Source of the DNA: Micromonospora sp. CPCC 205371
Lineage (GTDB): Bacteria; Actinomycetota; Actinomycetes; Mycobacteriales; Micromonosporaceae
DNA: 42,106 bases
Assembly: GCF_026130045.1 (NCBI RefSeq)
Contig: NZ_JAIBNX010000022.1
Span: 9,803-51,908, forward strand
Direction of reading: 5' to 3'
In this document: piece after piece, positions 8,573 through 41,702 of the stretch
Layout: every line of letters starts with the position of its first letter
Numbering within the stretch: position 1 is the stretch's first letter
The notes under the pieces: generated by a model
The model's input: the letters and a program-made list of their open reading frames with translations, nothing else
Told to the model about the DNA's origin: nothing
Database searches by the model: none
Position numbers and translations under genes: made by a program

Positions 8573-8578
8573 GCGCAA

Positions 8579-8584: not shown

Positions 8585-8599
8585 CGTCGTCCGACATCA

Positions 8600-8625
8600 G
8601 GCTCCTGAGAGAACTCTCAGGAGCC
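8600..8625. promoter_or_regulatory. 26-base palindromic operator between divergent promoters
   Basis: Perfect 12-bp inverted repeat: GGCTCCTGAGAG (8600-8611), two bases AA, CTCTCAGGAGCC (8614-8625). It lies between the two -10 boxes and covers the positions where both -35 elements should be (about 8602-8607 on minus and 8611-8617 on plus). This is the expected layout for a dimeric regulator controlling both genes. The cognate protein is not identifiable in the window. Confidence 0.65.
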
Positions 8626-8634
8626 CGGGCGGGC

Positions 8635-8640
8635 TACTCT
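8635..8640 (+). promoter_or_regulatory. -10 box for leaderless AAA+ gene
   Basis: TACTCT (8635-8640) is followed by six bases and the GTG start at 8647. This mirrors the -10/start geometry of the divergent gene and decides the GTG start over the upstream ATG at 8563, which would lie inside the neighbouring gene. Confidence 0.6.
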
Positions 8641-8646
8641 CGGCGC

Positions 8647-10851
8647 GTGGCCGAACGCGATCTCACTCTGACCGCGAGCATGCGTCCAGCGGCGCTGGAT
8701 GCCAGGCGTGGCATCGTCCGGCTGCATCCGGAGGTCCTGACCGCGTTGGGGCTGACCCCGGGCGATCCCGTGCACCTCGCCGGCCGCCGCAGCACCGCCG
8801 GCATCGCCGCCCGCGCCGAGCCGGGAGCCAGCCGCGCCCTGCTCTACGCCGACGACCTCATCCTCGGCAACCTCGGCATCCGCGACGGCGGCCAGATCAC
8901 GATCACGCCCGCGCCGGTCGTCGCCGCCGGCCGCGTCACGCTCGCCGGCCCGGTGGAGATCGTCGCCGCCGTGTCGCCGGAGATGCTGAGGCTCGCGCTC
9001 CTCGGCAAGGTGGTCACCGCGGGCGACAACGTGTCGCTGCTGCCGCAGGACGTCGTGCCCCAGTCCGAGACGCGTACCCTCATCGAGGGGGCGCGGCGCA
9101 GCCTCGCCAATACCGTCGGGTACGCGTGGACGAGCACCCTGCTGACCGTCGAGGCGGTCGAGCCGGCGGACGCCGCACTGGTCACAATGGACACCGTGGT
9201 CGCCTGGGAGGGCGGCCAGGCGACTCACGCACCCGGGACCACGCCTCCTTCTGCCGCGCCGGCTCCTGCTACGCCCACCGTGACCGTCGACGACCTCCCT
9301 GGTCTGCGCGCTCAGGCGCAAGAGCTGACCGAGCTGCTCGACCTGGGCTTCCACCACAGTGAGGTACTGGGGCGGCTCGGCACCACCGTCTCGCTCGGCG
9401 TGCTCATCACCGGCCCGGCCGGCTCCGGCAAGTCGTCGCTCGTCCAGGCGGTCGCTGGCAAGGTCGGTGCCCGGGTCGAGCAGCTCTGGGCGCCCGAGAT
9501 AGCGGCGCTCACCAACAACGACGCCGCCGCCCGGCTCCGCGCGGCAGCCGGCGCGGTGCGGTCCCGCGGTCCAGCGATCCTCCTGATAGCCGACGTCGAC
9601 GCGCTCGCACCGCGCGAGCAGCCCGGTCCACTGTCGACTGTGTTCCGTCAGGTGCTCGCCGAGACCGTACGCGCCGGGGCGGCCGTCATCTGCACGACGA
9701 GCCGGCCGGAGTCGGTCGACACCGCCCTGCGGGCACCCGACCTGCTGGCGGTGCAGCTCGCGGTACCCCTGCCCGACGCCGCCATGCGCCGCGAGCAGCT
9801 CACCGTGCTCACGAAGGGCATGCCACTCGCCGACGACGTCAAGCTCGACGACGTGGCCGGCCGTACCCCTGGCTTCGTCGCCGCCGACCTCGCCGCGCTC
9901 GCCCGCGAAGCCGGCGTGCGTGCGGCGCTGCGCATCCGGTCCGGCGCGACCGGCGCCTCGCCGGTCGTGACGATGGCCGACTTCGACGCCGCCCTCGAAG
10001 TGGTTCGACCAACGTCGATGTCGTCGTCCACACTGGAGCTCGCCGTGGTGACCCTCGACGATGTCGGTGACATGGCCGAGGTCAAAGAGGAACTGACCGA
10101 GACCGTGCTGTGGCCCCTCACGTACCCCGACACGTTCGCCCGCCTCGGCGTGCAGCCGCCGCGCGGCGTGCTGCTCTACGGGCCACCCGGTTGCGGCAAG
10201 ACGTTTCTCGTCAAGGCGATCGCCGGCACCGGCAAGGCCAACGTGCTCTCGGTCAAGGGCGCGGAGTTGCTGTCGAAGTGGGTTGGCGAAAGCGAGCGGG
10301 CGGTCCGCGAGCTCTTCCGCCGTGCCCGAGAAGCCGCGCCCACGCTGGTCTTCCTCGACGAGGTCGACGCCTTGGCCCCGGTACGCGGACAGGCCACCGA
10401 CGGCGGCACCACCGACCGGGTCGTCGCCGCCCTGCTCACCGAGCTCGACGGCGTCGAGGCCCTGCGCAACGTGGTCGTCGTCGCCGCCACCAACCGCCCC
10501 GACCTCGTCGACGCCGCCCTGCTCCGCCCCGGCCGGCTGGAGCGGCTGGTCTACGTCCCGCCACCGGACGCTGAGGCCCGCGCCGAGATCCTGCGTGCCT
10601 CGTCACGCAACGTGCCGCTCGCCGACAACGTCGACCTCCGGGCACTAGCCGCATCGCTGGACGGCTTCTCGGCCGCCGACTGCGCTGCCTTGCTACGCGA
10701 GGCCGCGCTGGCCGCGATGCGCGAGTCGCTCGAAGCGTCCACGGTGACGGCGGCACACGTGGCAACGGCCCGCCAGCGCGTAAGGCCATCCCTGGACCCG
10801 GCCCAGGTGGCGTGGCTGGAGACGTACGCGACCGCCCGCGAGACCCGTTGA
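8647..10851 (+). CDS. Cdc48/VCP-like double AAA+ ATPase
   Basis: 734 residues from GTG 8647. The first 180 or so residues form a Cdc48-type N-domain (ASMRPAALDARRGIVRLHPEV, then the barrel-like repeats). AAA domain 1 has Walker A GPAGSGKS (256-263), but its Walker B reads LLIADVDAL (312-320) in place of hhhhDEhD, and the arginine-finger segment is degenerate (LRAPDLLAVQLAV). AAA domain 2 is intact: YGPPGCGKT (511-519), pore loop KWVGESE (544-550), LVFLDEVDAL (567-576), ATNRPDLVDAALLRPGRLERL with arginine finger candidates R630/R633. It likely acts as a hexameric unfoldase or remodeller driven by the second ring. A small membrane protein gene overlaps its stop. Confidence 0.87.
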   Translation: MAERDLTLTASMRPAALDARRGIVRLHPEVLTALGLTPGDPVHLAGRRSTAGIAARAEPGASRALLYADDLILGNLGIRDGGQITITPAPVVAAGRVTLAGPVEIVAAVSPEMLRLALLGKVVTAGDNVSLLPQDVVPQSETRTLIEGARRSLANTVGYAWTSTLLTVEAVEPADAALVTMDTVVAWEGGQATHAPGTTPPSAAPAPATPTVTVDDLPGLRAQAQELTELLDLGFHHSEVLGRLGTTVSLGVLITGPAGSGKSSLVQAVAGKVGARVEQLWAPEIAALTNNDAAARLRAAAGAVRSRGPAILLIADVDALAPREQPGPLSTVFRQVLAETVRAGAAVICTTSRPESVDTALRAPDLLAVQLAVPLPDAAMRREQLTVLTKGMPLADDVKLDDVAGRTPGFVAADLAALAREAGVRAALRIRSGATGASPVVTMADFDAALEVVRPTSMSSSTLELAVVTLDDVGDMAEVKEELTETVLWPLTYPDTFARLGVQPPRGVLLYGPPGCGKTFLVKAIAGTGKANVLSVKGAELLSKWVGESERAVRELFRRAREAAPTLVFLDEVDALAPVRGQATDGGTTDRVVAALLTELDGVEALRNVVVVAATNRPDLVDAALLRPGRLERLVYVPPPDAEARAEILRASSRNVPLADNVDLRALAASLDGFSAADCAALLREAALAAMRESLEASTVTAAHVATARQRVRPSLDPAQVAWLETYATARETR

Positions 10852-27313: not shown

Positions 27314-28900
27314 TCAGAAGCTGAGCTTCGTACCCGCTCCCGCCGTGACGACCGACTTGATGGTGTTGGGGTCGGCGACCGTGTAGCTGTAGTAGGAGCT
27401 CGGCTCCTGCACGGTGCCGCTGCAGTCGGGCTGTCCCGACTCACCGACAAATACGTTGTTGCGTGCCACGCAGCGACCGGTCGGGCCCGCGTAGCTGTTG
27501 CTGACGGGCTCTTCGACGTCTTCGAAGTAGTTGCCTTCGACCACGCAGCCCGCGTTCGCTTGGCAGGCCACGCCGACGTCGGTGTTGTAGACGTAGTAGT
27601 TGTTGAACACATGCACCGGCTCGCCGAAGCGGACCCGCGGGTTGCGCTGGGGTGTCCGGTTGAACCAGTTGTTGTGATAGGTCACCTTGAGGTTTCCGGT
27701 GTCCTGGGCGGCGTTGCCGTCGTCGTGCCCGAGCAGCATCGTCTTGGTGTGGTTGTGGAAGTGGTTCCACGACACCGTGATGTACGACGAGCCACGCTTG
27801 ATGTCGAGGGCCCCGTCGTAGCCGTTCGAGATGTCGTTGTGGTCGAGCCACACGTGGTGCGAGAACATCTGCACGTTGATCCCGTCATCGGGGAAGTCGC
27901 GGATGTTCAGGTTCCGGATGATGACGTTGTGCACGGCGTTGGCCGGCGGGGTCGTGACGTCACTGATCGGCAGGCCGATGTTGAAGCCGCCGCCGGTGAT
28001 GCCGGAGTTGGCGCCGACGCCCACGATCGTCTTGTCTGAGGTCACGTCGTGCATCGGGCCGGGCAGCGCGATCATGCCGCTCACTCGGATGGTCAGGGGT
28101 CCGGCCTGGGCGATGGCGGCCAGCAGCTCGGCCGCGGTGTCCACCGTTACGGTGGGTCCGCCGGCGCCGCCCGTGGTGCCGTTCTGCCCGAGCGTGTTGA
28201 CCGAGGCGAAGCCCTTGGGCGGCACGCCCGGCTCGATCGGCGGCTCGGTGGGTGGCAGGGTCGGCCCGCCGCTCGTAGGTCCAGGGGTCGGCTCGGAGAC
28301 ACCGGTGGCGACCGTGACGTCGTCGACGGTGACGCTGGCGTAGCTGGCCGCGATGCCCGGACGGCCGCTGGCGAAGGCCGTGTCCGTCGCGCTGACCGCT
28401 AGCGCCCCGTTGACGTACCCGCGCAGTGAGCTGCCCGCCGCGTCGAGGCGCAGTGTCGTCCAGGTGCCGACCGGGCCAGCTCCGGTGCCGCTGCCCAGCA
28501 CGATCGGGCTCCCGCCCGCTCGCTTGATCAATTGCACGGCACCGAAGCTGGTGATTGTGAGCGCGTAATAGTTGCTGCTGCTCTGCGCGCGGGCGATCAG
28601 GCCGGCAAAGCGACCCGATCCGTTGAAGCCGGTCGGTTTGACCCTTGCCTGCACCGAGTAGTCGGTCCAGCTCGTCGATCCGACGAGGCTTCGGGAGTCG
28701 CTGCTGGTGCCCGACTGGCGGTACGCGCGGGTGCCGTCCGTGACGACCGACCACGTGCCGCCGGACGTGGACCAGCCGCTCGCGTTGCCGTCTTCGAAGT
28801 CGTCGGAGAGCAGCGTGTCCGCGAACGCGTACGGCGCGGCGATGACGACGAGTGCGCCGGTGGCGACCGCCGCTACCGCACCGAGATACTTGCGCTTCAC
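27314..28900 (-). CDS. Secreted PL1 pectate lyase with N-terminal LamG-like domain
   Basis: 528 residues from GTG 28900 (MKRKYLGAVA), with a strong GAGGAGG upstream. Signal peptide about 1-28; a concanavalin/LamG-like beta-sandwich domain (about 29-200: DDFEDGNASGWSTSGGTW...YVNGALAVSATDTAFASGRPG); a Pro/Thr linker (about 203-228); then a PL1 right-handed beta-helix with VWLDHNDIS, GALDIKRGSSYITVSWNHF and HNNWFNRTPQRNPRVRFG, whose last arginine is the catalytic position in this family. It cleaves polygalacturonate by calcium-assisted beta-elimination outside the cell. The accessory domain may bind polysaccharide. Second gene of a two-lyase unit. Confidence 0.9.
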   Translation of the reverse strand: MKRKYLGAVAAVATGALVVIAAPYAFADTLLSDDFEDGNASGWSTSGGTWSVVTDGTRAYRQSGTSSDSRSLVGSTSWTDYSVQARVKPTGFNGSGRFAGLIARAQSSSNYYALTITSFGAVQLIKRAGGSPIVLGSGTGAGPVGTWTTLRLDAAGSSLRGYVNGALAVSATDTAFASGRPGIAASYASVTVDDVTVATGVSEPTPGPTSGGPTLPPTEPPIEPGVPPKGFASVNTLGQNGTTGGAGGPTVTVDTAAELLAAIAQAGPLTIRVSGMIALPGPMHDVTSDKTIVGVGANSGITGGGFNIGLPISDVTTPPANAVHNVIIRNLNIRDFPDDGINVQMFSHHVWLDHNDISNGYDGALDIKRGSSYITVSWNHFHNHTKTMLLGHDDGNAAQDTGNLKVTYHNNWFNRTPQRNPRVRFGEPVHVFNNYYVYNTDVGVACQANAGCVVEGNYFEDVEEPVSNSYAGPTGRCVARNNVFVGESGQPDCSGTVQEPSSYYSYTVADPNTIKSVVTAGAGTKLSF

Positions 28901-28902
28901 GT

Positions 28903-28940
28903 GCCAGACCTCCTCAGCTTCACTGCCAGACCTCCTCAGC
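28903..28940 (-). repeat. Tandem duplication of a ribosome-binding site and GTG
   Basis: On the minus strand GCTGAGGAGGTCTGGCA is present twice, starting at 28940 and 28918. It is followed by GTGAA in the first copy and CGTGAA in the second. The second GTG is the lyase start; the first copy contains the TGA of the preceding gene and an extra GTG. Confidence 0.8.
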
Positions 28941-30240
28941 AGAGCCTTCCGGCACCGGCAAGTACCGGAACCAGGATGGATACGAACTGCGCGGGCAGGA
29001 CAGGACCGTGCCGCAGGGTCGGCGTCCAGCCGGAGTCGGCGCCCAGGTCGGGATCGTGCTCGGCGTTGTACGCGTCGAGCAGGTCGACCGCCGCCGCCCG
29101 GCCCTTACCTGACCGCGCCCAGGTGCCCTTCTCCGTGATCGCCGTGCCGCCCCAGTCGTAGATCACGTCCGCAGCGGTCACGCCCTCGCCGAGCGCGAAG
29201 AAGTTGTTCTCCGCGTAGATCGACGACTGGACGCCGACGCCCCAGGCGTACGAGAACCCGTCGCCGGCGACCTTGTAGTAGTTGTTGTAGATATCGACCT
29301 GGCCGAAGCGCACCCGGGGGAGGCGCTGGAGGCTGCCGTCGAACACGTTGTGGTGCAGCGTGACGTTGAGCCGGCCGACGTCCGGGCCGACGGTGTTCGA
29401 CGAGCCGATCAGCATCACCTTGTCGCGCGCCGAGAACCGGTTGAACGACGCGGTCACGAGGCTCGCCGTGTGAGTGATGTCGAGCGCACCGTCGTGTACC
29501 TGGTACGGCCGTCCAAAGTAGACAGACTGTTCGCTGTCGGGGTTGTCGCCGTCGGTGAACGTGTTGTGGTCGACCCACACGTTTTCGCTGCGCCGCACCG
29601 ACATCAGGTCGAACTGCGAGTTCCAGTTGCCTAGCTCACCGTCGGTCGGCGACCAGGCCGGGAAGCAATCCTGCGCGTCGACGAAGTTGAGATTGCGGAC
29701 GATCACGTTGTTGGCCCGGTCGACCATCAGCGTGAGGTGCTTCAGGGTCGCGCCGCGCGTGCCGATGATCGTTGTGTTCGCACCGACGTTGACCTGGGTG
29801 TACCGGGTCTGGTTGGCGACCGAACGCACCCGCGCTTCCTCGAGCGGGCCGCTCGGGTTGACCCGTCCCCAGACCGCCGGGTCGTACGTGGCGAGGTACG
29901 CGTCGAGCGAGTACGCCGGGTCGGCAAGCGCCGCACAGCCGCCGTCCAGCCCTTCGAAGCCGTCGACCGTGCCTTTGACGTACACGATTTTCGGGGTGGT
30001 ACCAGCGACCGCGGCGATGAGCTCGGCGCGATTGTCGACGACAAAGACGTTTTCCTCGGTGGCGGCGGAACCGCCAGTGGTGCCGGGTCCGGATGCGGCC
30101 CAGCCATCGTTTGCCGGCAGCACTTGCCGGCCCAGTTGACGTGCTCCCCAGGACACTTCGCCTTCGGCGCGGGCCGGTGCGGCGAACGCCGCCACCATGC
30201 CGAGCCCGGCCGCTACAGCGGCCAACTGCCTCAGTTGCAT
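28936..30240 (-). CDS. Secreted PL1 pectate lyase
   Basis: 434 residues with signal peptide (about 1-25, ending APARA). PL1 beta-helix: NNVIVRNLNFVDAQD, NVWVDHNTFTDGD, VHDGALDITHTASLVTASFNRF, NVTLHHNVFDGSLQRLPRVRFG (catalytic Arg region) and DIYNNYYKV. No accessory domain, unlike the neighbouring lyase. It is predicted to cleave pectate outside the cell. The upstream region carries TTGACT-N18-TAGCTT; the stop lies 35 bases before the second lyase start, so both are probably co-transcribed. GGAGA precedes the ATG. Confidence 0.9.
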   Translation of the reverse strand: MQLRQLAAVAAGLGMVAAFAAPARAEGEVSWGARQLGRQVLPANDGWAASGPGTTGGSAATEENVFVVDNRAELIAAVAGTTPKIVYVKGTVDGFEGLDGGCAALADPAYSLDAYLATYDPAVWGRVNPSGPLEEARVRSVANQTRYTQVNVGANTTIIGTRGATLKHLTLMVDRANNVIVRNLNFVDAQDCFPAWSPTDGELGNWNSQFDLMSVRRSENVWVDHNTFTDGDNPDSEQSVYFGRPYQVHDGALDITHTASLVTASFNRFSARDKVMLIGSSNTVGPDVGRLNVTLHHNVFDGSLQRLPRVRFGQVDIYNNYYKVAGDGFSYAWGVGVQSSIYAENNFFALGEGVTAADVIYDWGGTAITEKGTWARSGKGRAAAVDLLDAYNAEHDPDLGADSGWTPTLRHGPVLPAQFVSILVPVLAGAGRLC

Positions 30241-30443: not shown

Positions 30444-31601
30444 TCAGGCACCGGTTACCTCCTCGGTCAGGGCGGCCCGGAGCGGCTGTCCGGCCCACGG
30501 GACACCCAGTTCAGAGAACAGCGCGAGCCGCTCCGTCGCTTGGCGCAGCACAGCGTTGATCCCCTTGATGGTCAGTAAGCGCTCGGGCGGGACACCATCG
30601 ACGGAGACCGCGTCTTCGCCCAGCTTCGGCGGAATTGGCGCGGCGTGGAGTACGTCCAGCACCGCGGTGAACGGCTTGGTGCGCGCGAGCGGCGCGATCA
30701 ACGGCTCGCCCGTCGCGCGGTGCGCCAGCAGGTTTTCCAGCAGGCTCGTGCGGCCGGGTACCTCGCGGAACTCGGAGTCGTCCGGCAGCCGGAGCCGGTC
30801 GGTCGGGTACTCCAGCACCGCCGTACCGGCCGTGCCGTACACGATGACCTCGCCCTCGATCTTCTCCTCGCCGCACAGCGTCACGGCGACCAGAATCGGC
30901 AGGCCGGACTCCAGCGTAATCCGCATGCAGGCGGTGTCGTCGACCTCGATGTCCCGGCAGCGGTACCGCTCCAGCTCTACTGTGGACGGCGGCAGCCCGG
31001 CCACGGCAAGGCACTGCATCCAGGCGTGCGCCAGAGGGTTGGCGAGCGCACCGTCGAGCGATGGGTGCCCGTCGACCATGCGCTTGCCGGCCCACGGAGA
31101 CCGCTGGTAGTACGAGTCGGCGCGGTGCCACGAGGCGACCGCCGCGATCCCGGTGACCACGCCCAGCCTGCCGCCGGCGACCGCTGCCATCAGCTCGGCG
31201 AGCGCCGCCGAGCCGAGCGCCTGGAACCCGACCTGGAGGGCCCGGCCGGTCTCGTCGACCACGTCGCTGAGCGCGTGGTGCTCGTCGAGCGAGAGCACCG
31301 GCGGCTTCTCCAGCAACACGTCTGCACCGGCGCGGAGCGCGTCGGTGGCGATCGGCAGGTGGGTCTGCGGCGGCGTGCAGATCACCACCACGTCGGGCCG
31401 CACGGCGCGCAGCATCTCGCGGTGGTCGGTGAACAGTCCGGCGTCTTCGGGTACCGGCGCACCCGGCGCCGCCTCGATCGGGCGCACGTCGACCAGGCCG
31501 GCGAGCCGCACCCGCCCGGCCTCCTGTAGGGGCGCGATCTGCCGGCGGTGCCAGAGACCATGCCCATTGGCGCCGACCAGTGCCACCCGCGGCTCACTCA
31601 T
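30444..31601 (-). CDS. Gfo/Idh/MocA-family oxidoreductase (A)
   Basis: 385 residues. N-terminal Rossmann domain (VALVGANGHGLWHRRQ; PDVVVICTPPQTHLPIATDALRAGADVLLEKPPVLS, with the EKP motif) and a C-terminal alpha/beta substrate domain. Family members are NAD(P)-dependent sugar or cyclitol dehydrogenases. The place at the end of the uronate operon, 39 bases after the reductase gene, suggests processing of a pectin-derived sugar or of an unsaturated uronate. The exact substrate is unknown. No HisDH motif assignment is possible from sequence alone. Confidence 0.82.
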   Translation of the reverse strand: MSEPRVALVGANGHGLWHRRQIAPLQEAGRVRLAGLVDVRPIEAAPGAPVPEDAGLFTDHREMLRAVRPDVVVICTPPQTHLPIATDALRAGADVLLEKPPVLSLDEHHALSDVVDETGRALQVGFQALGSAALAELMAAVAGGRLGVVTGIAAVASWHRADSYYQRSPWAGKRMVDGHPSLDGALANPLAHAWMQCLAVAGLPPSTVELERYRCRDIEVDDTACMRITLESGLPILVAVTLCGEEKIEGEVIVYGTAGTAVLEYPTDRLRLPDDSEFREVPGRTSLLENLLAHRATGEPLIAPLARTKPFTAVLDVLHAAPIPPKLGEDAVSVDGVPPERLLTIKGINAVLRQATERLALFSELGVPWAGQPLRAALTEEVTGA

Positions 31602-31640: not shown

Positions 31641-33122
31641 TCATAGTGCGGCCTCGCGGAGCGTCTGCTCGACGCCGTGCTGCTCAAGGGCGGTGAGCCA
31701 GCCGGCCACCAACTCCCGCACGACGTCGTCACCGACCAGCTCGGCCGGGAAGACCTGGGTCAGGCCGAAGAGCGCGTCGACCACGCCCTCCGGAGAGTCC
31801 TTGCCTTCCGAAAGCGCCGTCCGGATGCGCTCGGCCAGCGGGTCGTCGAGCGGCAACGGGGCGCCACCGTCGGCCTGCCCTTGCACGAAGCGCATCCACG
31901 CGGCGAGCACGAGAGCGCCCCAGCGCGGCACGGCACCGGTCGCGCGCCGGTCGATGAGGGTGTGTAGCACCCGCTGCGGCAGCTTCTGCGAGCCGTCCAT
32001 GGCGACCTGGATGGTCCGGTGCCGGATCGCCGAGTTGGCGAACCGCTCCAGGACCGAGTCGCCGTACTCGACCACCGACACCCCGTCCGGTGGCTGGAAG
32101 CTGCCCGCGACGTCCTCGGCGACGAAACTGCGCAGCGCCTCTCGCATCCCCGGGATGGCCAGCGCCTCCGCGATCATCTCGCGGCCGGCGAGCGCACCCA
32201 GGTACGCGATCGCCGAGTGCACGCCGTTGAGGGCGCGCAGCTTCAGCCGCTCCCAGGGCCCGGCGTCGTCGGTCATCACCGCACCGGCCCGTTCCCACGC
32301 CGGCCGCCCGCCGGGGAACGCGTCCTCGATCACCCATTCCCGGTACGGCTCGGCCGCCACCGCCGCCAGATCGCTCACGCCCAGCAGCCCTTCGGCCGTG
32401 GCGAGCGTCTCCGGGGTGGTCGCCGGCACGATCCGGTCGACCATCGTGCCCGGGAACGTGACGTTGGCGCGTACCCATTCGACGACCGGTCCGGGGGCGC
32501 CGCCATACTCCAGGGCCTGCGTCACGAGGCCGTGCAGCCGCTTGCCGTTGGACGGCAGGTTGTCGCAGCTCAGCAGCGCGATCGGGCCGGCGTCGGCCGC
32601 CGCCCGCGCGATCAGGCCGCGTACCAGCAGGCCGGGCACGGTCGCCGGCGGTCCGTCGCCGGTGAGGTCGGCCGCGACAGCGGGGTCCGGCCGTAGCCGC
32701 CCGGTGGCAGGGTCGAGCTGGTACGCCTTCTCCGTCACCGTCAGCGTTACGACCCGGATGGCCGGGGAGGCGATCAGGTCGAGCACGCCGTCGGGATCGC
32801 TCGCCGCATGCCGTACGCCGGCGAACGCCCCGACCACCTCGCTGTGCGTGCCGTTGCCGCTCAACGACGTGACGCTGAAGAGGCAATCCTGCTCGATGAG
32901 GCTGCGCACCACGTCGAGACTGCGCGGCGCGACACCGACGATGCCCCAATCACCACCGGCGAGCGCGACGGCCGCCTCGGTGTACACCGCCTGGTGCGCG
33001 CGGTGGAAAGCGCCCAAACCGAGGTGGACGATGCCTGCGGGCACGGTGCCTGGGCGCACCCGAGGCCGGCTCGCCACCGGCACCTGGCGCAGGCCGCCCA
33101 GCGAGAGCCTCACTGCTGCCAT
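31641..33122 (-). CDS. Tagaturonate/fructuronate reductase (mannitol dehydrogenase family)
   Basis: 493 residues from ATG 33122, or 490 from GTG 33113, which would overlap the upstream stop as GTGA. Polyol-specific long-chain dehydrogenase fold: GIVHLGLGAFHRAHQAVYTE at the N-terminus, then LLSCDNLPSNG and FPGTMVDRIVPATT typical of UxuB/UxaB/mannitol dehydrogenases, and LKLRALNGVHSAIAYLG in the second domain. In the galacturonate branch it would reduce tagaturonate to altronate, and in the glucuronate branch fructuronate to mannonate, with NADH. Its place next to UxaC makes a uronate reductase much more likely than mannitol dehydrogenase. Confidence 0.87.
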   Translation of the reverse strand: MAAVRLSLGGLRQVPVASRPRVRPGTVPAGIVHLGLGAFHRAHQAVYTEAAVALAGGDWGIVGVAPRSLDVVRSLIEQDCLFSVTSLSGNGTHSEVVGAFAGVRHAASDPDGVLDLIASPAIRVVTLTVTEKAYQLDPATGRLRPDPAVAADLTGDGPPATVPGLLVRGLIARAAADAGPIALLSCDNLPSNGKRLHGLVTQALEYGGAPGPVVEWVRANVTFPGTMVDRIVPATTPETLATAEGLLGVSDLAAVAAEPYREWVIEDAFPGGRPAWERAGAVMTDDAGPWERLKLRALNGVHSAIAYLGALAGREMIAEALAIPGMREALRSFVAEDVAGSFQPPDGVSVVEYGDSVLERFANSAIRHRTIQVAMDGSQKLPQRVLHTLIDRRATGAVPRWGALVLAAWMRFVQGQADGGAPLPLDDPLAERIRTALSEGKDSPEGVVDALFGLTQVFPAELVGDDVVRELVAGWLTALEQHGVEQTLREAAL

Positions 33123-34417
33123 ACCGGTCCGTCCGGGAAGGAGTATTCGGCGATCGATTCCGGCTTCATGGTGGCGCTGTACCCGGGCTGCTCGGGCAGC
33201 AGGTACCGGCCGTCGCGGGTGCGCACCGGGTCGACGAAGTGCTCGTGCAGGTGGTCGACGTACTCGACCATGCGGCCGTCGAGCGACGTGCCCACCCGCA
33301 GGTAGTCGAAGATCGCCAGATGCTGGACGTACTCGCAGAGGCCCACGCCACCCGCGTGCGGGCAGATCGGCACGCCGAACTTCGCGGCCATCAGGATCTC
33401 GGAGAGCACCTCGTTGACGCCGCCGACCCGGCAGGCGTCGATCTGCATGACGCCGATCGCCTCGGCCTGGAGGAGCTGCTTGAAGATGACCCGGTTGGCG
33501 GCGACCTCGCCGGTCGCCACCCTGCACCGGCCGTTTGTCAGCTGCGTCACGGTCCGCTGAATCTTGGCGTGGCCGAGCACGTCGTCGGCGTGCGTGGGCT
33601 CCTCGATCCAGTACGGGTCGAACTCGGCGAGCCGCGCCATGTTGGCGATCGCCTCGTCGACGTCCCATACCTGGTTGGCGTCCATCATCAGCAACGCGTC
33701 CGGCCCGATCTCCTCGCGGATGATCCGGGCACGGCGGACGTCGTCGTCGATCGGGCCGCCCACCTTCATCTTCATCGCCCGCCAACCCTCGGCGTACGCC
33801 TGGCGGGTCAGGGCGCGCACCTTGTCGTCGGGATAGCCCAGCCAGCCCACCGACGTGGTGTACGACGGGAAGCCATCCCGCTCCAGTTCGCGGAGCCGGT
33901 CGTCCATGCCGACCAGGCCCTTGTCGAGGATCGCGGCCGCCTCGGCGGGTTTCAACGCGTCGGTGATGTGGTGGAAGTCGATGCTGCGCACCAGCTCTTC
34001 GGTGGGCATCTCGGCGAGCAGCCGCCATAACGGCTTGCCCGCAAGCTTCGCCCGCAGGTCCCACACCGCGTTGACCACCGCGCCGGTGGCCATATGGATG
34101 ACGCCCTTTTCCGGGCCCAGCCACCGGAGCTGGACGTCGGCGCTCAGCGACCGCCAGAACGCGACCGGCTCAGCGAAGATGTCCTCAATGGAGCGTCCGG
34201 TCACGTGGTGCGCGAGGGCACGGACAGCGGCACAGGTGATCTCGTTGCCGCGCCCGTTGGTGAACGTGAAGCCGGCGCCTTCTACTCCGGCGTCCGTCTT
34301 CAGCGACACGTACGTCGCCGAGTAGTCGCCGCGGTTGATCGCGTCGGATCCATCGCCGGCGGCCGCCGTCGGAAACCGAACGTCGTGTACGTCAACGGAC
34401 GTGATGACTGTGGTCAC
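33110..34417 (-). CDS. L-fuconate dehydratase-like enolase superfamily enzyme
   Basis: 435 residues from GTG 34417, overlapping the uxaC stop (GTGA). Mandelate-racemase-type acid-sugar dehydratase closest in motif pattern to L-fuconate dehydratases: KMK in WRAMKMKVGG (K216/K218), metal ligands D246 in MMDANQVW, E272 in WIEEPT and E304 in ATGEVAANR, and the Asp/His partners D327 (MQIDACR) and H354 (CPHAGGVGLCEY). Length fits the FucD family. In this operon the expected dehydratase would be UxaA or UxuA, both absent, so dehydration of D-altronate or D-mannonate to 2-keto-3-deoxygluconate is the likely job (inference). Confidence 0.85.
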   Translation of the reverse strand: MTTVITSVDVHDVRFPTAAAGDGSDAINRGDYSATYVSLKTDAGVEGAGFTFTNGRGNEITCAAVRALAHHVTGRSIEDIFAEPVAFWRSLSADVQLRWLGPEKGVIHMATGAVVNAVWDLRAKLAGKPLWRLLAEMPTEELVRSIDFHHITDALKPAEAAAILDKGLVGMDDRLRELERDGFPSYTTSVGWLGYPDDKVRALTRQAYAEGWRAMKMKVGGPIDDDVRRARIIREEIGPDALLMMDANQVWDVDEAIANMARLAEFDPYWIEEPTHADDVLGHAKIQRTVTQLTNGRCRVATGEVAANRVIFKQLLQAEAIGVMQIDACRVGGVNEVLSEILMAAKFGVPICPHAGGVGLCEYVQHLAIFDYLRVGTSLDGRMVEYVDHLHEHFVDPVRTRDGRYLLPEQPGYSATMKPESIAEYSFPDGPVWQQ

Positions 34418-35823
34418 AGCTTGAAGATCCTCTTGGGCAGTCGGTAGGCGAGGTCGACGATCGTCTCGGCCGCCTCGTCGAGTGGCAGCCGGTGCTCGGC
34501 GACCAGTCGGGCGAGGAATCCGGCGTCGATCCGGCGCGACACGTCGTGCCGGACCGGGATGGAGCAGAAGGCGCGGGTGTCGTCGACGAACCCGGCCGTG
34601 TTGTAGAAGCCGGCGGTCTCGGTGACCGCTTCGCGGTACCGGCGCAGCACCTCCGGCGAGTCCAGGAACCACCAGGGCGCGCCGAGGAAAAGCGCGGCGT
34701 ACCCGCCGGCCAGCGGCGCCAGCTCGCGGGTGAACGTGTCCTCGTCCAGCGTGTACAGCACCACTCGCAGGCGCGGGTCGTTGCCGTACTTCTCCAGCAG
34801 CGGCATCAGGTTGTACACGTACTCGGTGGCCCGCGGGATGTCACCGCCGACGTCACGCCCGTGCGTCGCGTACAGCCACTTGTTGTGGTTGCGCACCGCA
34901 CCCGGGTGCAGCTGCATCACGAGGCCGTCCTCAATGGACATCCTGGCGAACTCGACGAGCATGTGCGCCCGGAAGATCTCGGCGTCGATCTGCCCGGCCT
35001 CGCCGCGGATGCCGCGCTCGAAGATCTCGGCTGCGTCTTCGTCGTCCAGCGCCTCGGTCTTCGCGGTGAGGTGGCCGTGGTCGGACGAGGTCGCGCCCGC
35101 CGCGATGAACGCCTGCCGCCGGCTGCGCAACGCGGCCAGGTATCCGCTGTACGTCGCCGTGTCTTCGCCGGTGATCTCGCCGAGGCGTACGACGTTGTCG
35201 GCCCAGTCGTCGAACTCCATGTCGACCACGTTGTCCGGCCGGAACGTGGTGACGACCCGGCCACCCGGGCCGCCCCAGCCGTCCGCCGCAAGCTTCGCGT
35301 GCCGGCCCAGATCGTCCAATGGGGACTCGGTCGTGGCCAGCACCTCGATGTTGAAGCGCTCGAAGAGGGCCCGCGGCCGGAACTCGGGCTCGGCGAGCTT
35401 CGCCGCGATCGCGTCGTACACCTCGTCGGCGGTTTCCGGGCTGAGCCGGGTGGTCACGCCGAACACGTTGGCGAACGTCTCCTCCAGCCACAGCCGGGAG
35501 GGCGTGCCGCGGAAGAGGTACCAGTGCTCGGCGAACCGGCGCCAGATGGTCCGGCCGTCGGTCTCGTACGGCTCGCCGGTGCGGGTCGGTACGCCGAGGG
35601 ACGCAGGCGACACGCCCTGGCTGAGCAGCATCCGGGTGACGTAGTGGTCTGGGCAGATGATCAGTTGCGCCGGGTCGGGGAAGGGCGTGTCCTCGGCCAG
35701 GATCGACGGGTCTATGTGCCCGTGCGGGGAAATGATCGGCTGGTCCTTGGCGAGGGCGTACAGCTCCCGGGCTAAGCCCCGCTGCGTGGGTTCGGCGGGA
35801 AAGAGCAGGTCGGCTCGCGACAC
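34414..35823 (-). CDS. uxaC: Uronate (glucuronate/galacturonate) isomerase
   Basis: 469 residues, the family's usual length. Amidohydrolase-like metal motif SPHGHIDPS near residue 33, the family stretches LPLLEKYGNDPRLRVVLYTLDEDTF and FLGAPWWFLDSPEVLRRYREAVTETAGFYNTAGFVDDTRAF. Converts D-galacturonate to tagaturonate and D-glucuronate to fructuronate, the first intracellular step after pectin import. It follows the Gfo/Idh/MocA gene B by 9 bases and overlaps the next gene by GTGA. Confidence 0.94.
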   Translation of the reverse strand: MSRADLLFPAEPTQRGLARELYALAKDQPIISPHGHIDPSILAEDTPFPDPAQLIICPDHYVTRMLLSQGVSPASLGVPTRTGEPYETDGRTIWRRFAEHWYLFRGTPSRLWLEETFANVFGVTTRLSPETADEVYDAIAAKLAEPEFRPRALFERFNIEVLATTESPLDDLGRHAKLAADGWGGPGGRVVTTFRPDNVVDMEFDDWADNVVRLGEITGEDTATYSGYLAALRSRRQAFIAAGATSSDHGHLTAKTEALDDEDAAEIFERGIRGEAGQIDAEIFRAHMLVEFARMSIEDGLVMQLHPGAVRNHNKWLYATHGRDVGGDIPRATEYVYNLMPLLEKYGNDPRLRVVLYTLDEDTFTRELAPLAGGYAALFLGAPWWFLDSPEVLRRYREAVTETAGFYNTAGFVDDTRAFCSIPVRHDVSRRIDAGFLARLVAEHRLPLDEAAETIVDLAYRLPKRIFKL

Positions 35824-35832
35824 GGATGGCTC

Positions 35833-37161
35833 CTAGGGGATGGTGAGCAGGTCGGCGACCTTGACCGGCTGGCCGGTCTCGAACGAACGGTTGGCGGCCA
35901 GGCCGGTGAGGAGAGCCAGCGCGCCGTCCCGAGCGGAAGCGCCACGACCCATTGGATCATGCACGCCGCCGAAAAGGACCGCGGTCATGCGGGCGTCCGC
36001 ACCACCATGGCCCGCTCGGGTGTATCCGGGCACCGGCACCTGCCGCGGCTGCGCCCAGAACGGCCGCAGGGTGATCCGTGCCCAGCCTTCCTCGACGGCT
36101 GCCTGCACGCCATGCAGGGCCGCGCCTTTCAACTCGGTTGCGGCGTACGGGCTGACGAAGTCGCTCTCCACGACCTCCAGCTCGAGCCGTCCCTTGCTGC
36201 CGTTGAACATCACCCGGTAGCCCTCCCACGGGGCGTACGCGGTGAGGTGGTACGTCATCGTGGCGCCGGTGGAGTACTTGGCCAGCACCGCCATGTCGTC
36301 TTCGATCGTGACGCCGGGTGCGAAGACGTTCTGGTCCCGGTGGTATCCATCCTCCGCCTCGGCGTCCAGGTAGAGCGCTCGCAGTTGCGGGTTGGCGGCG
36401 AGGTGCAGCGCGAACGGGTCACCGGCCGCCTCGGGGCTGCCGTGCGCACGCTCGTAGTCGCGGGCGTACCCGTGCCGCCGCCCCTGCTCGCCGTAGAAGA
36501 ACAACCCTCCGTACGCGAACACCTCGACCGGCACCGCGCCGAGCCACCAGTTGACGAGGTCGAAGTGGTGACTGCTCTTGTGCACCATCAGGCCGCCGGA
36601 GTTGACCTTCTCGCGGTGCCACCGCCGGAAGTAGTCGGCTCCGTGCCGCACGTCCAGCAGCCACTCGAAGTGCACCGAGCCCACCTCGCCGATCTCGCCG
36701 TCGGCGAGCACCTGGCGCACTTTCTCGTGCAAAGGGTTGTAGCGGTAGTTGAATGCGACGGTGACGTTCCGGCCAGTCTCGGCGACCGCGTCGAGAATGC
36801 GCTGGCAGCGCGGGACGTCGGTGGTCATCGGCTTCTCGGTCACCACGTCGCGGCCGGACTTGAGCGCGGCCACGATGTACTCGTCGTGTGTGCGGTCGAC
36901 GCTCGTCACCAGTGCGACGTCGACCCGCTCCTTGTCGAGCATGTTGGTGAACTCGGCCGCCTGGTACGTCGGCACCGCATCCGCGCCGAGCTCCTCCAGC
37001 CAGGAGTTGTGCGCGTCCATGCGGGCCTGGTTGACATCGGCGAACGCCACCAGCTCGGCCCGGTCTGCGTGGTCACGGACTATCGAGCGCACGAACATCT
37101 CGGCACGCGAACCGGTGCCTACGAGGGCGTAGCGGAGCCGCCGCTGCGGCTGATCCGACAT
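35833..37161 (-). CDS. Gfo/Idh/MocA-family oxidoreductase (B)
   Basis: 442 residues from ATG 37161 (MSDQPQRRLRYALVGTGSRAEMF), with GGAGG upstream; the in-frame extension to 37221 has no good ribosome site. NAD(P)-binding GTGSRAEM; the EKP motif in DVVTEKPMTTD; an extended substrate domain (WLLDVRHGADYFRRWHREKVNSGGLMVHKSSHHFDLVNWW) as in oxidoreductases acting on larger glycosides. First gene of the leftward uronate operon. It could oxidise or reduce a glycoside intermediate of pectin (rhamnogalacturonan or oligouronate); the substrate is unknown. Confidence 0.82.
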   Translation of the reverse strand: MSDQPQRRLRYALVGTGSRAEMFVRSIVRDHADRAELVAFADVNQARMDAHNSWLEELGADAVPTYQAAEFTNMLDKERVDVALVTSVDRTHDEYIVAALKSGRDVVTEKPMTTDVPRCQRILDAVAETGRNVTVAFNYRYNPLHEKVRQVLADGEIGEVGSVHFEWLLDVRHGADYFRRWHREKVNSGGLMVHKSSHHFDLVNWWLGAVPVEVFAYGGLFFYGEQGRRHGYARDYERAHGSPEAAGDPFALHLAANPQLRALYLDAEAEDGYHRDQNVFAPGVTIEDDMAVLAKYSTGATMTYHLTAYAPWEGYRVMFNGSKGRLELEVVESDFVSPYAATELKGAALHGVQAAVEEGWARITLRPFWAQPRQVPVPGYTRAGHGGADARMTAVLFGGVHDPMGRGASARDGALALLTGLAANRSFETGQPVKVADLLTIP

Positions 37162-37428: not shown

Positions 37429-38481
37429 GTGCCCGCCACCATTCGCGACGTCGCCCGCGCGTCCGGCGTGCACATCTCCACCGTCTCGCGCACCTTCTCC
37501 GCACCCCACCTGGTCAACCCCGACACCCGCAACCGCGTCCTGGCCTGCGCCGAACACCTCGGCTACCGACCCAACCGCGCCGCCCGCGCCCTGATCACCG
37601 GAAGAACCCACAACATCGGCCTCATCGTCGCCGACATCGCCAACCCCTTCTTCCCACCCCTGATCAAAGCCGCCGAAAGCCAAGCCAGACACCGCGACTA
37701 CCACATCTTCGTCACCGACACCAACGAAGACCCCGCCGTCGAAGAAGACCTCGTCCACGCCCTCGCCAAACAAGTCGACGGCATACTCCTCTGCTCCCCC
37801 CGCATGAACAACAGCCTCATCGAACAACTCAGCAGAGAAGTACCCCTCGTCGTCATCAACCGCCACATCACCGGCCTACCCACCGTCGTCATGGACGTCG
37901 CCACCGGCACCCGCCACGCCATCGACCACCTCACCACCCTCGGCCACACCCACATCGCCCTACTCGGCGGACCCCGCGGCTCCTGGACCAACCGCGAAAT
38001 CCGCCGCGCCGCCACCACCGCCACCCGCACCACCGACACCCAACTCACCATCCTCGGCCCCAACCCACCCACCGAACACGGCGGCCACCACCAAGCCGAA
38101 AACATCACCCGCGCCGGCGCCACCGCCGTCCTCTGCTACAACGACCTCATCGCCATCGGACTCATCGAAGGCCTCCACCAACAAGGCCTCCACGTCCCCA
38201 CCGACATCAGCGTCATCGGCATCGACGACATCACCCTCAGCCGACTCACCCGCCCCAAACTCACCACCGTCGCCAACCCCACCGCAGCCGCCGGACGAGC
38301 CGCCGTCGACATGCTCCTGCAGCACGACGGTCATTGGTCCGGACGTATCGGTCGCGGTGGCCTCCGCACGGCCACTGGCGACCGACGCACCACCGCACAG
38401 GTAACGCTCCAAACCGAATTGGTCGTCCGCGACTCGACGGGCCCAGCGCCCGGCGCAGTCGTCTCCGAGGACAAGGAGTGA
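37429..38481 (+). CDS. LacI-family regulator of pectin/uronate utilisation
   Basis: 350 residues from GTG 37429, preceded by GGAG. N-terminal LacI helix-turn-helix PATIRDVARASGVHISTVSRTFS with hinge region RPNRAARALITGRT, then a periplasmic-binding-protein-like effector domain (GLIVADIANPFFPPLIKAAES; VVINRHITGLPTVVMDV; ISVIGIDDITLSRLTRP) and the family ending TELVVRDSTGP. It likely represses both divergent operons until a pectin-derived sugar binds. Composition is odd: from about codon 45 to codon 300 Glu, Gln and Lys use almost only GAA, CAA and AAA, and the coding strand is very C-rich and G-poor. The last 50 or so codons return to normal usage. Confidence 0.9.
   Translation: MPATIRDVARASGVHISTVSRTFSAPHLVNPDTRNRVLACAEHLGYRPNRAARALITGRTHNIGLIVADIANPFFPPLIKAAESQARHRDYHIFVTDTNEDPAVEEDLVHALAKQVDGILLCSPRMNNSLIEQLSREVPLVVINRHITGLPTVVMDVATGTRHAIDHLTTLGHTHIALLGGPRGSWTNREIRRAATTATRTTDTQLTILGPNPPTEHGGHHQAENITRAGATAVLCYNDLIAIGLIEGLHQQGLHVPTDISVIGIDDITLSRLTRPKLTTVANPTAAAGRAAVDMLLQHDGHWSGRIGRGGLRTATGDRRTTAQVTLQTELVVRDSTGPAPGAVVSEDKE
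37560..38325 (+). other. C-rich, G-poor composition anomaly within lacI
   Basis: For example 37981-38040 has 33 C and 11 G in 60 bases. A-ending codons GAA, CAA, AAA and GGA replace the usual G-ending ones, while C dominates other third positions. Neighbouring genes show balanced C and G. The shift back is abrupt near 38325. Confidence 0.7.
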
Positions 38482-38489
38482 GCACGGAA

Positions 38490-39803
38490 ATGCACCCCGC
38501 CACAGGCAACTCCAGGCGCCGGCTTCTCCGCGGCATCGCCGCGGTAGCGGTGGCGCTACCCCTCACCTTCGGCGCCGCCGCATGCGGTGGCGACGACAAC
38601 GAAGGCAGCGGCAGCACCGATGCCAACAAGCCGGTCGAGCTATCCGTCTTCTACTGGGGCAGCGAAAAGCGCGCTGAGCTGACCCAGAAGGCGCTCGACG
38701 CGTACAAGGCGAAGAACCCCAACGTCAGCTTCAAGATCACGTGGCAGGCCAACCAGGGCTACGCCGACAAGCTGGCCACGCTGGCCGCTTCCGGTGACGT
38801 ACCGGACCTGTTCGCCACCGACGACAACATGCTGGCGGACTTCGCCACCCGTAACGTCACCGCCGACCTGAACGAGTACAAGGGCAACAAGCTCGACCTC
38901 AGCAAGTTCCCGCCCAGCCTCGTCGAGTACGGCACGGTCGACGGCAAGCTGGTCGGCATCGCGGCCGGTGAAAACACCCAGGGTCTGGTGTACAACAAGA
39001 CCCTGCTCACCTCGAACGGCCTCCCCGAGCCCACCACGGGCATGACCTGGGAGGCGTTCATCGACTGGGCCGCACAGGTCACGGCGAAGACCAAGGTGCC
39101 CGGCACCATGGACCCGAGCGCCGATTACAAGGCGTTCTGGGTGTGGCTGCGCCAGCAGGGCAAGGACCTCTACAACGGCAAGCAGCTCGGCTTCACGGCC
39201 GACGACGTGGCCAAGTGGTTCACCCTGTGGAAGGGCGCTCGCGACAAGAAGGCGACCCCGACCGCGGACATCATCCACGAGGGCAACGTCACCGACATCT
39301 CCAAGCAGCTCGTCGTGACCGGCAAGGCCGCGACGTCGTTCGTCTGGGCCAACCAGATGCCCGAGCTGAAGAAGAGCACCAAGGACGAGTTGGGCGTCGT
39401 CGCGTACCCCGGCGACCCGAGCGCCCAGTGGGCCCGCGCGGCCATGTACTGGAACGTCGCGAACAACAGCGACAACAAGGACGTCGCGGTCGACGTCATC
39501 AACTTCCTGGTCAACGACGAGGCGGCGGTCACCGCGCTCGGCACCGATCGTGGCCTCCCGTCCAACATGGACCTGCGGACCAAGTTCGCCGAGACGGTCA
39601 CCGACCCGGCGATGAAACTGTCCATCCAGGTTGAGAACGACCTGGCGACCAAGTTCGGCAAGGCGCCGCAGGTGCCGCCAAAGGGCCACAGCACGTTCCG
39701 GTCCGAGCTCGTGAAGGCGGCGGAGAACGTCCAGTTCGGACGGGCTACGCCGGAGAAGGCCGCAGCCGACTTGATCGCGGTCGTCCAGCCGAAGCTGGGT
39801 TAG
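38490..39803 (+). CDS. Sugar ABC transporter substrate-binding lipoprotein
   Basis: 437 residues from ATG 38490; GTG 38478, overlapping the lacI stop as GTGA, is an alternative start. The N-terminus combines a twin-arginine motif (SRRRLLRG) with a lipobox GAAAC (Cys32), so it is probably a Tat-exported lipoprotein. The mature protein is a family 1-type extracellular solute-binding protein (VELSVFYWGSEKRAELTQKAL; MTWEAFIDWAAQVTA). It likely captures oligogalacturonides or related pectin sugars and delivers them to the two permeases that follow. AAGGAG lies 11 bases before the ATG. Confidence 0.9.
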   Translation: MHPATGNSRRRLLRGIAAVAVALPLTFGAAACGGDDNEGSGSTDANKPVELSVFYWGSEKRAELTQKALDAYKAKNPNVSFKITWQANQGYADKLATLAASGDVPDLFATDDNMLADFATRNVTADLNEYKGNKLDLSKFPPSLVEYGTVDGKLVGIAAGENTQGLVYNKTLLTSNGLPEPTTGMTWEAFIDWAAQVTAKTKVPGTMDPSADYKAFWVWLRQQGKDLYNGKQLGFTADDVAKWFTLWKGARDKKATPTADIIHEGNVTDISKQLVVTGKAATSFVWANQMPELKKSTKDELGVVAYPGDPSAQWARAAMYWNVANNSDNKDVAVDVINFLVNDEAAVTALGTDRGLPSNMDLRTKFAETVTDPAMKLSIQVENDLATKFGKAPQVPPKGHSTFRSELVKAAENVQFGRATPEKAAADLIAVVQPKLG

Positions 39804-39843: not shown

Positions 39844-40827
39844 GTGGCGTTGACCACGGCTAACACGCCGTCGGTACACGCGAGCCAGGCCACCGGGGCT
39901 TCCGCCAAGCGGCGGAGGCCCCGGCGCGGCCAGCAGCGCGAAGGTCTGGCAGGGTACATCTTCCTGTCGCCATGGCTCATCGGATTGATGGGCATCACGG
40001 CGATACCGATGCTCCTGTCGCTGTACCTCAGCTTCACCAACTACGACGTCCTCAGCCCGCTGGGCGAGGCTGAGTGGGTCGGGTTGGCGAACTACAAGCG
40101 GATGTTCACCAGCGATCCGTCGTACTGGCGCTCGGTCACCGTGACCGTGTCGTTCGCGCTGATCGCGGTACCTCTGAAGCTCGCCGCCGCGCTCGGCGTC
40201 GCGCTGCTGCTCAACAAGGCCTGGCGCGGCGTCGGCCTTTTCCGCGGCCTTTTCTACCTGCCGTCGCTCATCGGCGGCAGCGTTGCCCTGGCGATCGTCT
40301 GGGTCAACATGTTCAACCGGGAAGGCGCCTTCAACGGCTTCCTCGCGATCTTCGGCATCGAGGGCAAGCCGTGGGTCAACGACCCGAGCTGGGCGCTGGA
40401 GACCCTGATGGTGCTCGCCATCTGGCAGTTCGGCGCGCCGATGGTGATTTTCCTGGCCGGCCTGAAGCAGGTGCCCACGGAGCTGTACGAGGCGGCTTCG
40501 GTCGACGGCGCCGGCCGGTTCCGGCAGTTCCTGAGCGTGACGCTGCCGATGCTGTCGCCGGTCATCTTCTTCAACCTCGTACTGGAGACCATCAACGGCT
40601 TCCAGGGCTTCACGGCGGCGTTCGTGCTCAGCGACGGCACCGGCGGGCCGGTCGACTCGACGCTTATGTACACGCTGAACCTCTACCTCAAGGGCTGGCG
40701 GGAATACGAGATGGGCTACGCGTCCGCCATGGCGTGGGTGTTCCTTTTGGCAATCGGCATCATCACCGCGGTGTTCTTCTCCACCGGCCGGTTCTGGGTG
40801 CACTACTCGGATGGGGATGATCGCTGA
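39844..40827 (+). CDS. Sugar ABC transporter permease, MalF/UgpA type
   Basis: 327 residues from GTG 39844 with GGGAGAAAG upstream. A basic N-terminus is followed by six transmembrane segments (first: GYIFLSPWLIGLMGITAIPM). The ATPase-coupling EAA loop reads ELYEAASVDGAGRFRQFLSV. It forms the import channel with the next gene product. The stop and next start share one base (TGATG). In this kind of operon the energising ATPase is often supplied from elsewhere, here probably by the gene at 26027. Confidence 0.92.
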   Translation: MALTTANTPSVHASQATGASAKRRRPRRGQQREGLAGYIFLSPWLIGLMGITAIPMLLSLYLSFTNYDVLSPLGEAEWVGLANYKRMFTSDPSYWRSVTVTVSFALIAVPLKLAAALGVALLLNKAWRGVGLFRGLFYLPSLIGGSVALAIVWVNMFNREGAFNGFLAIFGIEGKPWVNDPSWALETLMVLAIWQFGAPMVIFLAGLKQVPTELYEAASVDGAGRFRQFLSVTLPMLSPVIFFNLVLETINGFQGFTAAFVLSDGTGGPVDSTLMYTLNLYLKGWREYEMGYASAMAWVFLLAIGIITAVFFSTGRFWVHYSDGDDR

Positions 40828-41702
40828 TGGTCGCTTCGACTCCGGCGGTCTCCCGCCGCCGCTCCGGTCTCGGCCGCGGGGTGGTGCGCACCGCGATCCT
40901 CCTGCTGATCCTCGCCGTCGTGCTGTACCCGCTGATCTGGATGGTCGGCACCTCGTTCAAGGGCCAGACCGAGATCGTCAGCAACACCGGCGTGTTGCCG
41001 GGCGACTTCACGCCCGGCAACTACACCGACGGGTGGAACCACTTCGACGTCAGCTTCTCGCGGTTCTTCCTGAACAGTGCGATGGTGGCGCTGCTGACCG
41101 TCATCGGCAACGCGATCTCCTGCCTGGTCGCCGCGTACGCCTTCGCGCGACTGCGGTTCCCGCTGCGCGGCTTCTGGTTCGCCGTCATGATCGGCACCCT
41201 GTTGCTGCCGCAGCACGTGCTGACGATCCCGCAGTACATCCTGTTCAAGCAGTTCGGTTGGGTGGGCGGCGAGTGGCCGTACCTCCCGCTGCTGGTGCCG
41301 CAATTCCTCGCGACCGAGGCGTTCTTCGTCTTCCTGATGGTGCAGTTCATGCGGGGCATCCCGCGCGAGCTCGACGAGGCCGCCAAGATCGACGGCGCGA
41401 GCCCGTTCGGCATCTTCCGGTACGTGATGCTGCCGCTCAGCCGGCCAGCGCTCGTGACCACCGCGATCTTCTCGTTCATCTGGACCTGGAACGAGTTCTT
41501 CCGCCAGCTGGTTTACCTGTCTGACCTGTCGGACTACACGATTCCGGTGGCGATGACGCTGTTCATCGACTCGACGGGGCAGAGCGCGATCGGGCCGATG
41601 TTCGCGATGTCGGTGCTGTCGCTGCTGCCGGTGTTCCTGTTCTTCGTGGCGTTCCAGCGGCTGCTGGTCGAAGGCATCAACACCAGCGGGCTCAAGGGAT
41701 GA
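40827..41702 (+). CDS. Sugar ABC transporter permease, MalG/UgpE type
   Basis: 291 residues with six transmembrane segments and the EAA loop ELDEAAKIDGASPFGIFRYVMLP. Partner of the MalF-type permease in the carbohydrate importer. It starts one base inside the preceding stop (TGATG) and is coupled by ATGA to the YesL-like gene that follows. Confidence 0.93.
   Translation: MVASTPAVSRRRSGLGRGVVRTAILLLILAVVLYPLIWMVGTSFKGQTEIVSNTGVLPGDFTPGNYTDGWNHFDVSFSRFFLNSAMVALLTVIGNAISCLVAAYAFARLRFPLRGFWFAVMIGTLLLPQHVLTIPQYILFKQFGWVGGEWPYLPLLVPQFLATEAFFVFLMVQFMRGIPRELDEAAKIDGASPFGIFRYVMLPLSRPALVTTAIFSFIWTWNEFFRQLVYLSDLSDYTIPVAMTLFIDSTGQSAIGPMFAMSVLSLLPVFLFFVAFQRLLVEGINTSGLKG

Follow-up and report, generated by a model that had tools for sequence, protein, structure and literature searches.

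An L-fuconate dehydratase-like gene in a pectin operon of Micromonosporaceae as a proposed D-altronate dehydratase

A FucD-like gene between uxaC and a uronate reductase

The stretch analysed here (the window) comprises 42,106 nucleotides of contig NZ_JAIBNX010000022.1 of Micromonospora sp. CPCC 205371 and carries a gene of the enolase superfamily that resembles L-fuconate dehydratase (FucD) and that we propose to encode a D-altronate dehydratase. The gene (33110–34417, minus strand) has a GTG start and an intact open reading frame (ORF) that runs without interruption over 435 amino acids; its product is labelled P0001. On one side lies uxaC (34414–35823, minus strand), which encodes a uronate isomerase of 469 amino acids (Pfam UxaC, 254 bits; NCBIfam glucuronate isomerase, 553.7 bits against a cut-off of 387), and on the other a gene (31641–33122, minus strand) for a UxuB-type uronate reductase of the mannitol dehydrogenase family (P0002), which has both Mannitol_dh domains, N- and C-terminal, and which we propose as a D-tagaturonate reductase. 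The sequence GTGA at 34414–34417 is the shared overlap of the uxaC stop codon and the GTG start of the FucD-like gene, and the reductase gene begins inside the 3′ end of the FucD-like gene, either at ATG 33122 or at GTG 33113, the latter again as GTGA. A preliminary description of the window, made from the letters of the DNA, had reported this overlapping trio and the FucD motifs, and both stand. On the context described below, P0001 is very probably a dedicated and probably Mg2+-dependent D-altronate dehydratase, belonging to the FucD branch of the mandelate-racemase subgroup.

The arrangement is strongly conserved. A scan of GTDB genomes for relatives of the FucD-like gene retained the best 80 of 567 (78–89% identical), on which all locus counts below are based. 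The order uxaC, FucD-like gene and reductase gene on a single strand recurs in 80 of 80 loci and is therefore not due to chance; throughout, the gene is co-encoded with uxaC and a reductase and not with genes of L-fucose oxidation. Together with two genes for Gfo/Idh/MocA oxidoreductases the trio occurs in 73 loci, some loci being cut by contig ends.

The surrounding genes indicate a pectin operon. One Gfo/Idh/MocA oxidoreductase gene lies upstream of uxaC (35833–37161, minus strand; 74 loci), with an uncertain start in an ORF that is open to 37221, and the other lies downstream of the reductase gene (30444–31601, minus strand; 76 loci); the two stand on either side of the uronate genes in almost every relative and have no obvious role in the pathway. 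Further downstream on the minus strand are genes for a pectate lyase (Pectate_lyase_4; 28936–30240; 64 loci) and a second pectate lyase (27314–28900; 33 loci). Divergently, on the plus strand, Pfam matches identify a LacI-family regulator (37429–38481; 76 loci) and the solute-binding protein of a sugar ATP-binding cassette (ABC) transporter (SBP_bac_1; 38334–39803; 74 loci), the true start of which is probably past 38481. Two further plus-strand ORFs (39844–40827 and 40827–41702; 73 loci each) encode what we take to be the permeases of this transporter type. A scan of ten window proteins revealed neither a fucose dehydrogenase nor a lactonase.

A separate clade within the FucD branch

P0001 carries the features of the mandelate-racemase subgroup of the enolase superfamily: the MR_MLE_N (33 bits) and MR_MLE_C (204 bits) domains, a KxK motif, three acidic metal ligands and a His/Asp dyad. 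The closest solved structures are human ENOSF1 (E value 2e-158) and Xanthomonas FucD (about 1e-152), and an AlphaFold model of P0001 superimposes on these structures with template-modelling (TM) scores of 0.93–0.97. The model has an overall predicted local distance difference test (pLDDT) score of 91 that falls below 50 at residues 20–28, part of the most divergent loop, so we make no claim about the shape of this 20s loop. In Xanthomonas FucD numbering, which is used throughout, K218, K220, D248, E274, E301, D324 and H351 are identical in all 86 members of the clade of P0001 and in the 37 other sequences compared, and presumably have the catalytic and metal-binding roles of their FucD counterparts. 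No NCBIfam model scores above its cut-off for P0001, and thus no name could be obtained from that source.

In sequence and fold FucD is the nearest relative, and P0001 nevertheless does not lie among the usual-type FucD proteins. A midpoint-rooted tree of 61 sequences (24 of the 86 distinct clade members and the 37 others) separates the uxaC-linked group by a branch of length 0.5 with 100/100 support; Xanthomonas FucD, ENOSF1 and L111, a second FucD-like protein from the same genome, all fall on the opposite side. Twenty-three alignment columns distinguish the 86 clade members from the 37 others. They include a one-residue deletion at D29 in the 20s loop (86/86), the change H302V directly after the metal ligand E301 (84/86, the other two having Ala), and L219M between the two KxK lysines, along with I56N, P192V, S278H, N334V and A371R. 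Two clade changes, L20G and V247M, are found in ENOSF1 too. A FucD-like protein outside the clade, encoded at 1501–2781 of locus L029 (genome G017), lies on a long branch and has Ala in place of His after the metal-binding Glu (TGEAVANR); judged by its sequence, it may act on another substrate.

The usual-type genes keep different company. UxaC was found near none of the 18 usual-type FucD-like loci retrieved, L111 included. Ten neighbouring proteins of five other FucD-like copies were typed as amidohydrolases (two), aldo-keto reductases (two), FAA hydrolases (two), sugar transporter parts (two) and a zinc alcohol dehydrogenase (one), with one giving no match, a set in line with L-fucose oxidation. 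The gene for L111 is itself of the usual fucose type, keeps the usual motifs and has a sugar ABC transporter (BPD_transp_2/Peripla_BP_4 type) downstream; on its upstream side the contig ends.

Distribution and complementarity with UxaA-domain proteins

The preliminary description had noted that neither UxaA nor UxuA accompanies the trio. We searched the whole source genome, a draft assembly of 9.36 Mb in 481 contigs that is 98.5% complete. The UxaA domain (PF20629, GD_AH_C) gave no match anywhere in it, whereas E. coli and four other control genomes matched in the same search, and the lack of UxaA is thus borne out within the limits of a draft. For UxuA (PF03786), three weak matches on two contigs were found. 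One, L147 (384 amino acids), reached 77 and 45 bits where the NCBIfam cut-offs are 191 and 199.55; the remaining two, on another contig, are fragmentary, and one of them contains an internal stop. We therefore rejected these as a functional UxuA, and the absence of a bona fide UxuA is supported within the same limits. L147 itself (9490–10644, minus strand, contig C428) is a divergent UxuA-family protein with, by eye, an apparent twin-arginine translocation signal, encoded near a 5-dehydro-4-deoxyglucarate dehydratase gene and a gene that, also by eye, resembles an aldehyde dehydrogenase.

Because the closest named relatives of the FucD-like gene in the GTDB scan and the tree are Micromonosporaceae, we took this as the family and drew 150 of its genomes. 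Orthologues were defined by at least 69% identity, the next-best matches reaching at most 60%. UxaC is matched in 119 of the genomes and the FucD-like orthologue in 107 (108 copies). The two go together: all 107 orthologue genomes have UxaC, none of the 31 genomes without UxaC has the orthologue, and for 106 of the 108 copies UxaC is encoded on the same strand at a distance of no more than 500 bp. Of the 150 genomes, 19 have a PF20629 match. This domain is absent from 100 of the 107 genomes with the orthologue, whereas 9 of the 12 that have UxaC and lack the orthologue encode a PF20629 protein (Fisher p = 2e-7 among UxaC genomes, with no correction for kinship). PF03786 is found in five family genomes (G000, G366, G349, G305 and G314), and 97 of the 107 orthologue genomes have neither domain. 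UxaE was found in none of the 150, which leaves no epimerase detour to mannonate.

The genomes in which the trio is incomplete are the most informative. Among the 29 UxaC copies without an adjoining orthologue, 14 were retrieved and inspected, covering 11 of the 12 genomes that have UxaC and lack the orthologue (all except G345). In five of them (G321, G365, G422, G425 and G428) the same pectin operon is present with the FucD-like gene missing between uxaC and the reductase gene, and in G392 the uxaC–reductase pair stands alone. All six have a PF20629 protein, and in G425 and G428 its gene and a second uxaC are about 1 kb apart.

The reductases point in the same direction. In three genomes (G401, G423 and G435) a UxaA-domain gene overlaps the gene for a reductase that shares 49–53% identity with P0002 as well as its NCBIfam type. 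In a tree of 29 reductases these three belong to the sister group of the window-type enzymes (92/92; 99/95 for the joint group), and the one ManD-linked reductase, from G192, falls in a separate group (98/95).

Across the class, UxaC and a FucD-like gene occur together in 23 of 296 genomes sampled. By listed coordinates, the two are adjacent only in three members of the family; the nearest other pair is about 14 kb apart (G215). Genome G192, from a different actinobacterial family, has another enolase in a similar operon: at 6389–10449 of locus L176 (minus strand), uxaC, a reductase 38% identical to P0002 and a bona fide ManD (676 bits, cut-off 550) lie in a row. At two further loci, L160 (6228–10656) and L172 (5124–10588), uxaC and a reductase with 40–42% identity stand beside or near an FGGY-family sugar kinase gene, with no dehydratase recognised among the genes inspected; this is possibly a phosphorylating variant of uronate use. 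At L161 (G378), uxaC is accompanied by LacI and reductase genes, and the genome showed no PF20629 protein and no FucD-type orthologue.

Proposed function and comparison with known systems

Taken together, operon position, near-exclusive distribution, the six genomes that lack the gene, the separate fucose-type FucD and the clade-specific active-site changes support replacement of UxaA by P0001. In the proposed pathway, pectate lyases would act outside the cell and their products would enter by ABC uptake; UxaC would convert galacturonate to tagaturonate, the UxuB-type reductase would give D-altronate, and the FucD-like enzyme would dehydrate this to 2-keto-3-deoxygluconate (KDG). KDG would then pass through 2-keto-3-deoxy-6-phosphogluconate (KDPG) to pyruvate and glyceraldehyde-3-phosphate by a kinase and an aldolase encoded elsewhere. 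On contig C235 of the source genome, the genes for a KDPG aldolase (TIGR01182, 251 bits, cut-off 156) and a PfkB-type kinase overlap, and the genome encodes KduI too, so an onward route for KDG is plausible. Mechanistically, FucD chemistry relies on a KxK lysine, Mg2+ and a barrel histidine. In P0001 the KxK lysine would likewise take the C2 proton, Mg2+ held by three acidic residues would stabilise the enediolate and the barrel histidine would aid departure of the C3 hydroxyl. The analysis establishes the gene, its catalytic residues, the operon, the distribution and the complementarity with UxaA-domain proteins; the altronate substrate is deduced from genomic context, and metal, kinetics and pathway direction are likewise inferred.

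The stereochemistry of the candidate substrates fits this scheme. D-Altronate, L-galactonate and D-arabinonate share the same configuration at C2, C3 and C4, according to PMC6336799, and FucD and UxaA substrates are classed together as (2S,3R) acids in PMC10079672. L-Fuconate-type substrates agree with D-altronate at C2–C4. The promiscuity of FucD toward D-altronate noted in the preliminary description is in print: for the Xanthomonas enzyme, PMC13406643 gives residual activity on D-altronate, L-galactonate and D-arabinonate. Given the shared C2–C4 configuration, accepting altronate would require only room for one more hydroxyl and for the opposite configuration at C5.

Several findings weigh against this interpretation. 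P0002 scores better with the NCBIfam fructuronate reductase model (315 bits, cut-off 603) than with tagaturonate reductase (157); the three UxaA-coupled reductases score in the same way, so NCBIfam cannot separate the two activities here. The sister group of the window-type reductases also holds those of L161 and L175, from genomes without a PF20629 match, and a fourth UxaA-linked reductase, L153 from G411, matches the true UxaB model (410 bits, cut-off 359) and sits on a long branch far from that of the window. Seven of the 107 orthologue genomes hold a PF20629 protein as well, and three UxaC genomes (G345, which is partial, G362 and G378) have neither. The reductases of the operons that lack the FucD-like gene form one cluster of five plus G392 within the window-type clade, so the six cases perhaps represent two events. 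PF20629 takes in the wider UxaA/GarD family, with dehydratases for galactarate, arabinonate and further substrates (PMC6336799), so that a match may be something other than an altronate enzyme. UxaA in the six genomes without the FucD-like gene is presumed, the neighbourhoods of UxaA-domain genes having been inspected in six genomes in all and, within this set, in G425 and G428. Outside the family, 25 of 44 UxaC genomes have neither PF20629 nor PF03786, which makes the lack of UxaA and UxuA weak evidence by itself and indicates that the step is also solved in other ways, as by ManD in G192. Finally, the PfkB-type kinase resembles KDG kinases and yet falls under every NCBIfam cut-off.

Among other readings, it is very unlikely that P0001 dehydrates D-mannonate in a glucuronate branch running from UxaC through fructuronate. 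The preference of P0002 for the fructuronate model would suit it, as would the ability of E. coli UxaC to handle both uronates (PMC6353982). The true ManD beside uxaC and a related reductase in G192 also speaks for it, and two of the 107 orthologue genomes (G349 and G366) have better UxuA-family matches, the source genome having a weak one. Against it, the six genomes without the gene hold UxaA-domain proteins and not UxuA, the ManD-linked reductase falls in another clade, the operon encodes pectate lyases, and UxaE is absent. D-Mannonate, moreover, does not have the C3 configuration of the known FucD substrates. Of the altronate or mannonate dehydratase first suggested in the preliminary description, the altronate half is therefore supported by context and the mannonate half is not: C2–C4 stereochemistry, the presence of UxaA and not UxuA where the gene is missing, the reductase grouping and the pectinolytic operon all favour altronate.

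We regard as highly improbable a fungal-type route in which the reductase yields L-galactonate and P0001 converts it to 2-keto-3-deoxy-L-galactonate. In its favour, FucD is known to accept L-galactonate, which is epimeric with D-altronate at C5, as a minor substrate (PMC13406643). The three UxaA-coupled relatives of P0002 nonetheless point to altronate, and the genome encodes the KDPG aldolase and kinase pair. Polyol-type long-chain reductases, furthermore, give D-altronate or D-mannonate. Least probable of all is an ordinary L-fuconate dehydratase serving L-fucose freed from pectin side chains, since, although P0001 has the fold and the catalytic residues of FucD and L-fucose does occur in pectins, a usual-type FucD-like gene exists elsewhere in the genome, the scanned window proteins comprise neither a fucose dehydrogenase nor a lactonase, no dehydratase would be left to act with UxaC and the reductase, and the protein belongs to a separate clade with active-site changes.

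Returning to D-altronate, we think it likely that all members of the clade across Micromonosporaceae are Mg2+-dependent enolase-superfamily enzymes dedicated to D-altronate dehydration, which arose from FucD by few active-site changes and replaced the iron-dependent UxaA, perhaps for oxygen tolerance, with UxaA returning in some lineages. If so, a magnesium enzyme of another superfamily would supply the step that pectin use lacks in a large family of soil actinomycetes, the misleading name L-fuconate dehydratase would be corrected, and a much-studied superfamily would gain a clean case of a substrate switch between close stereoisomers, for which the usual-type paralogue L111 in the same genome provides a built-in control.

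We found no report of an enolase-type altronate dehydratase in the literature searched, which left out the bulk of the subscription papers, the original one on FucD (Yew 2006) among them; a 2025 review assigns bacterial altronate dehydration to a specific iron-dependent enzyme (PMC12076931). That enzyme, UxaA of the UxaA/GarD family, would share the reaction and pathway position proposed for P0001. It differs in being of an unrelated family and using an unrelated metal; P0001 has no PF20629 match and would be a non-orthologous replacement. ManD belongs to the same superfamily and in G192 likewise lies beside uxaC and a UxuB-type reductase gene, whereas P0001 reaches 58 bits against the ManD cut-off of 550 and has no PF03786 match. 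D-Arabinonate dehydratases (the archaeal enolase type and the bacterial UxaA/GarD type) act on a substrate that shares the C2–C4 configuration of D-altronate, as given in PMC6336799; these enzymes serve another pathway, and P0001 scores 87 bits against the cut-off of 650 of the archaeal enolase model. Closest is FucD itself (Xanthomonas campestris XCC4069; Protein Data Bank 2HNE, 1YEY and 2HXT; ENOSF1, 4A35), which has the same fold, 53–55% identity in structural alignments and all catalytic and metal residues in common with P0001, and from which P0001 is set apart by its uxaC, reductase and pectate lyase neighbours in place of fucose genes and by clade changes that are fixed or nearly so, among them the 20s-loop deletion, L219M, S278H and H302V.

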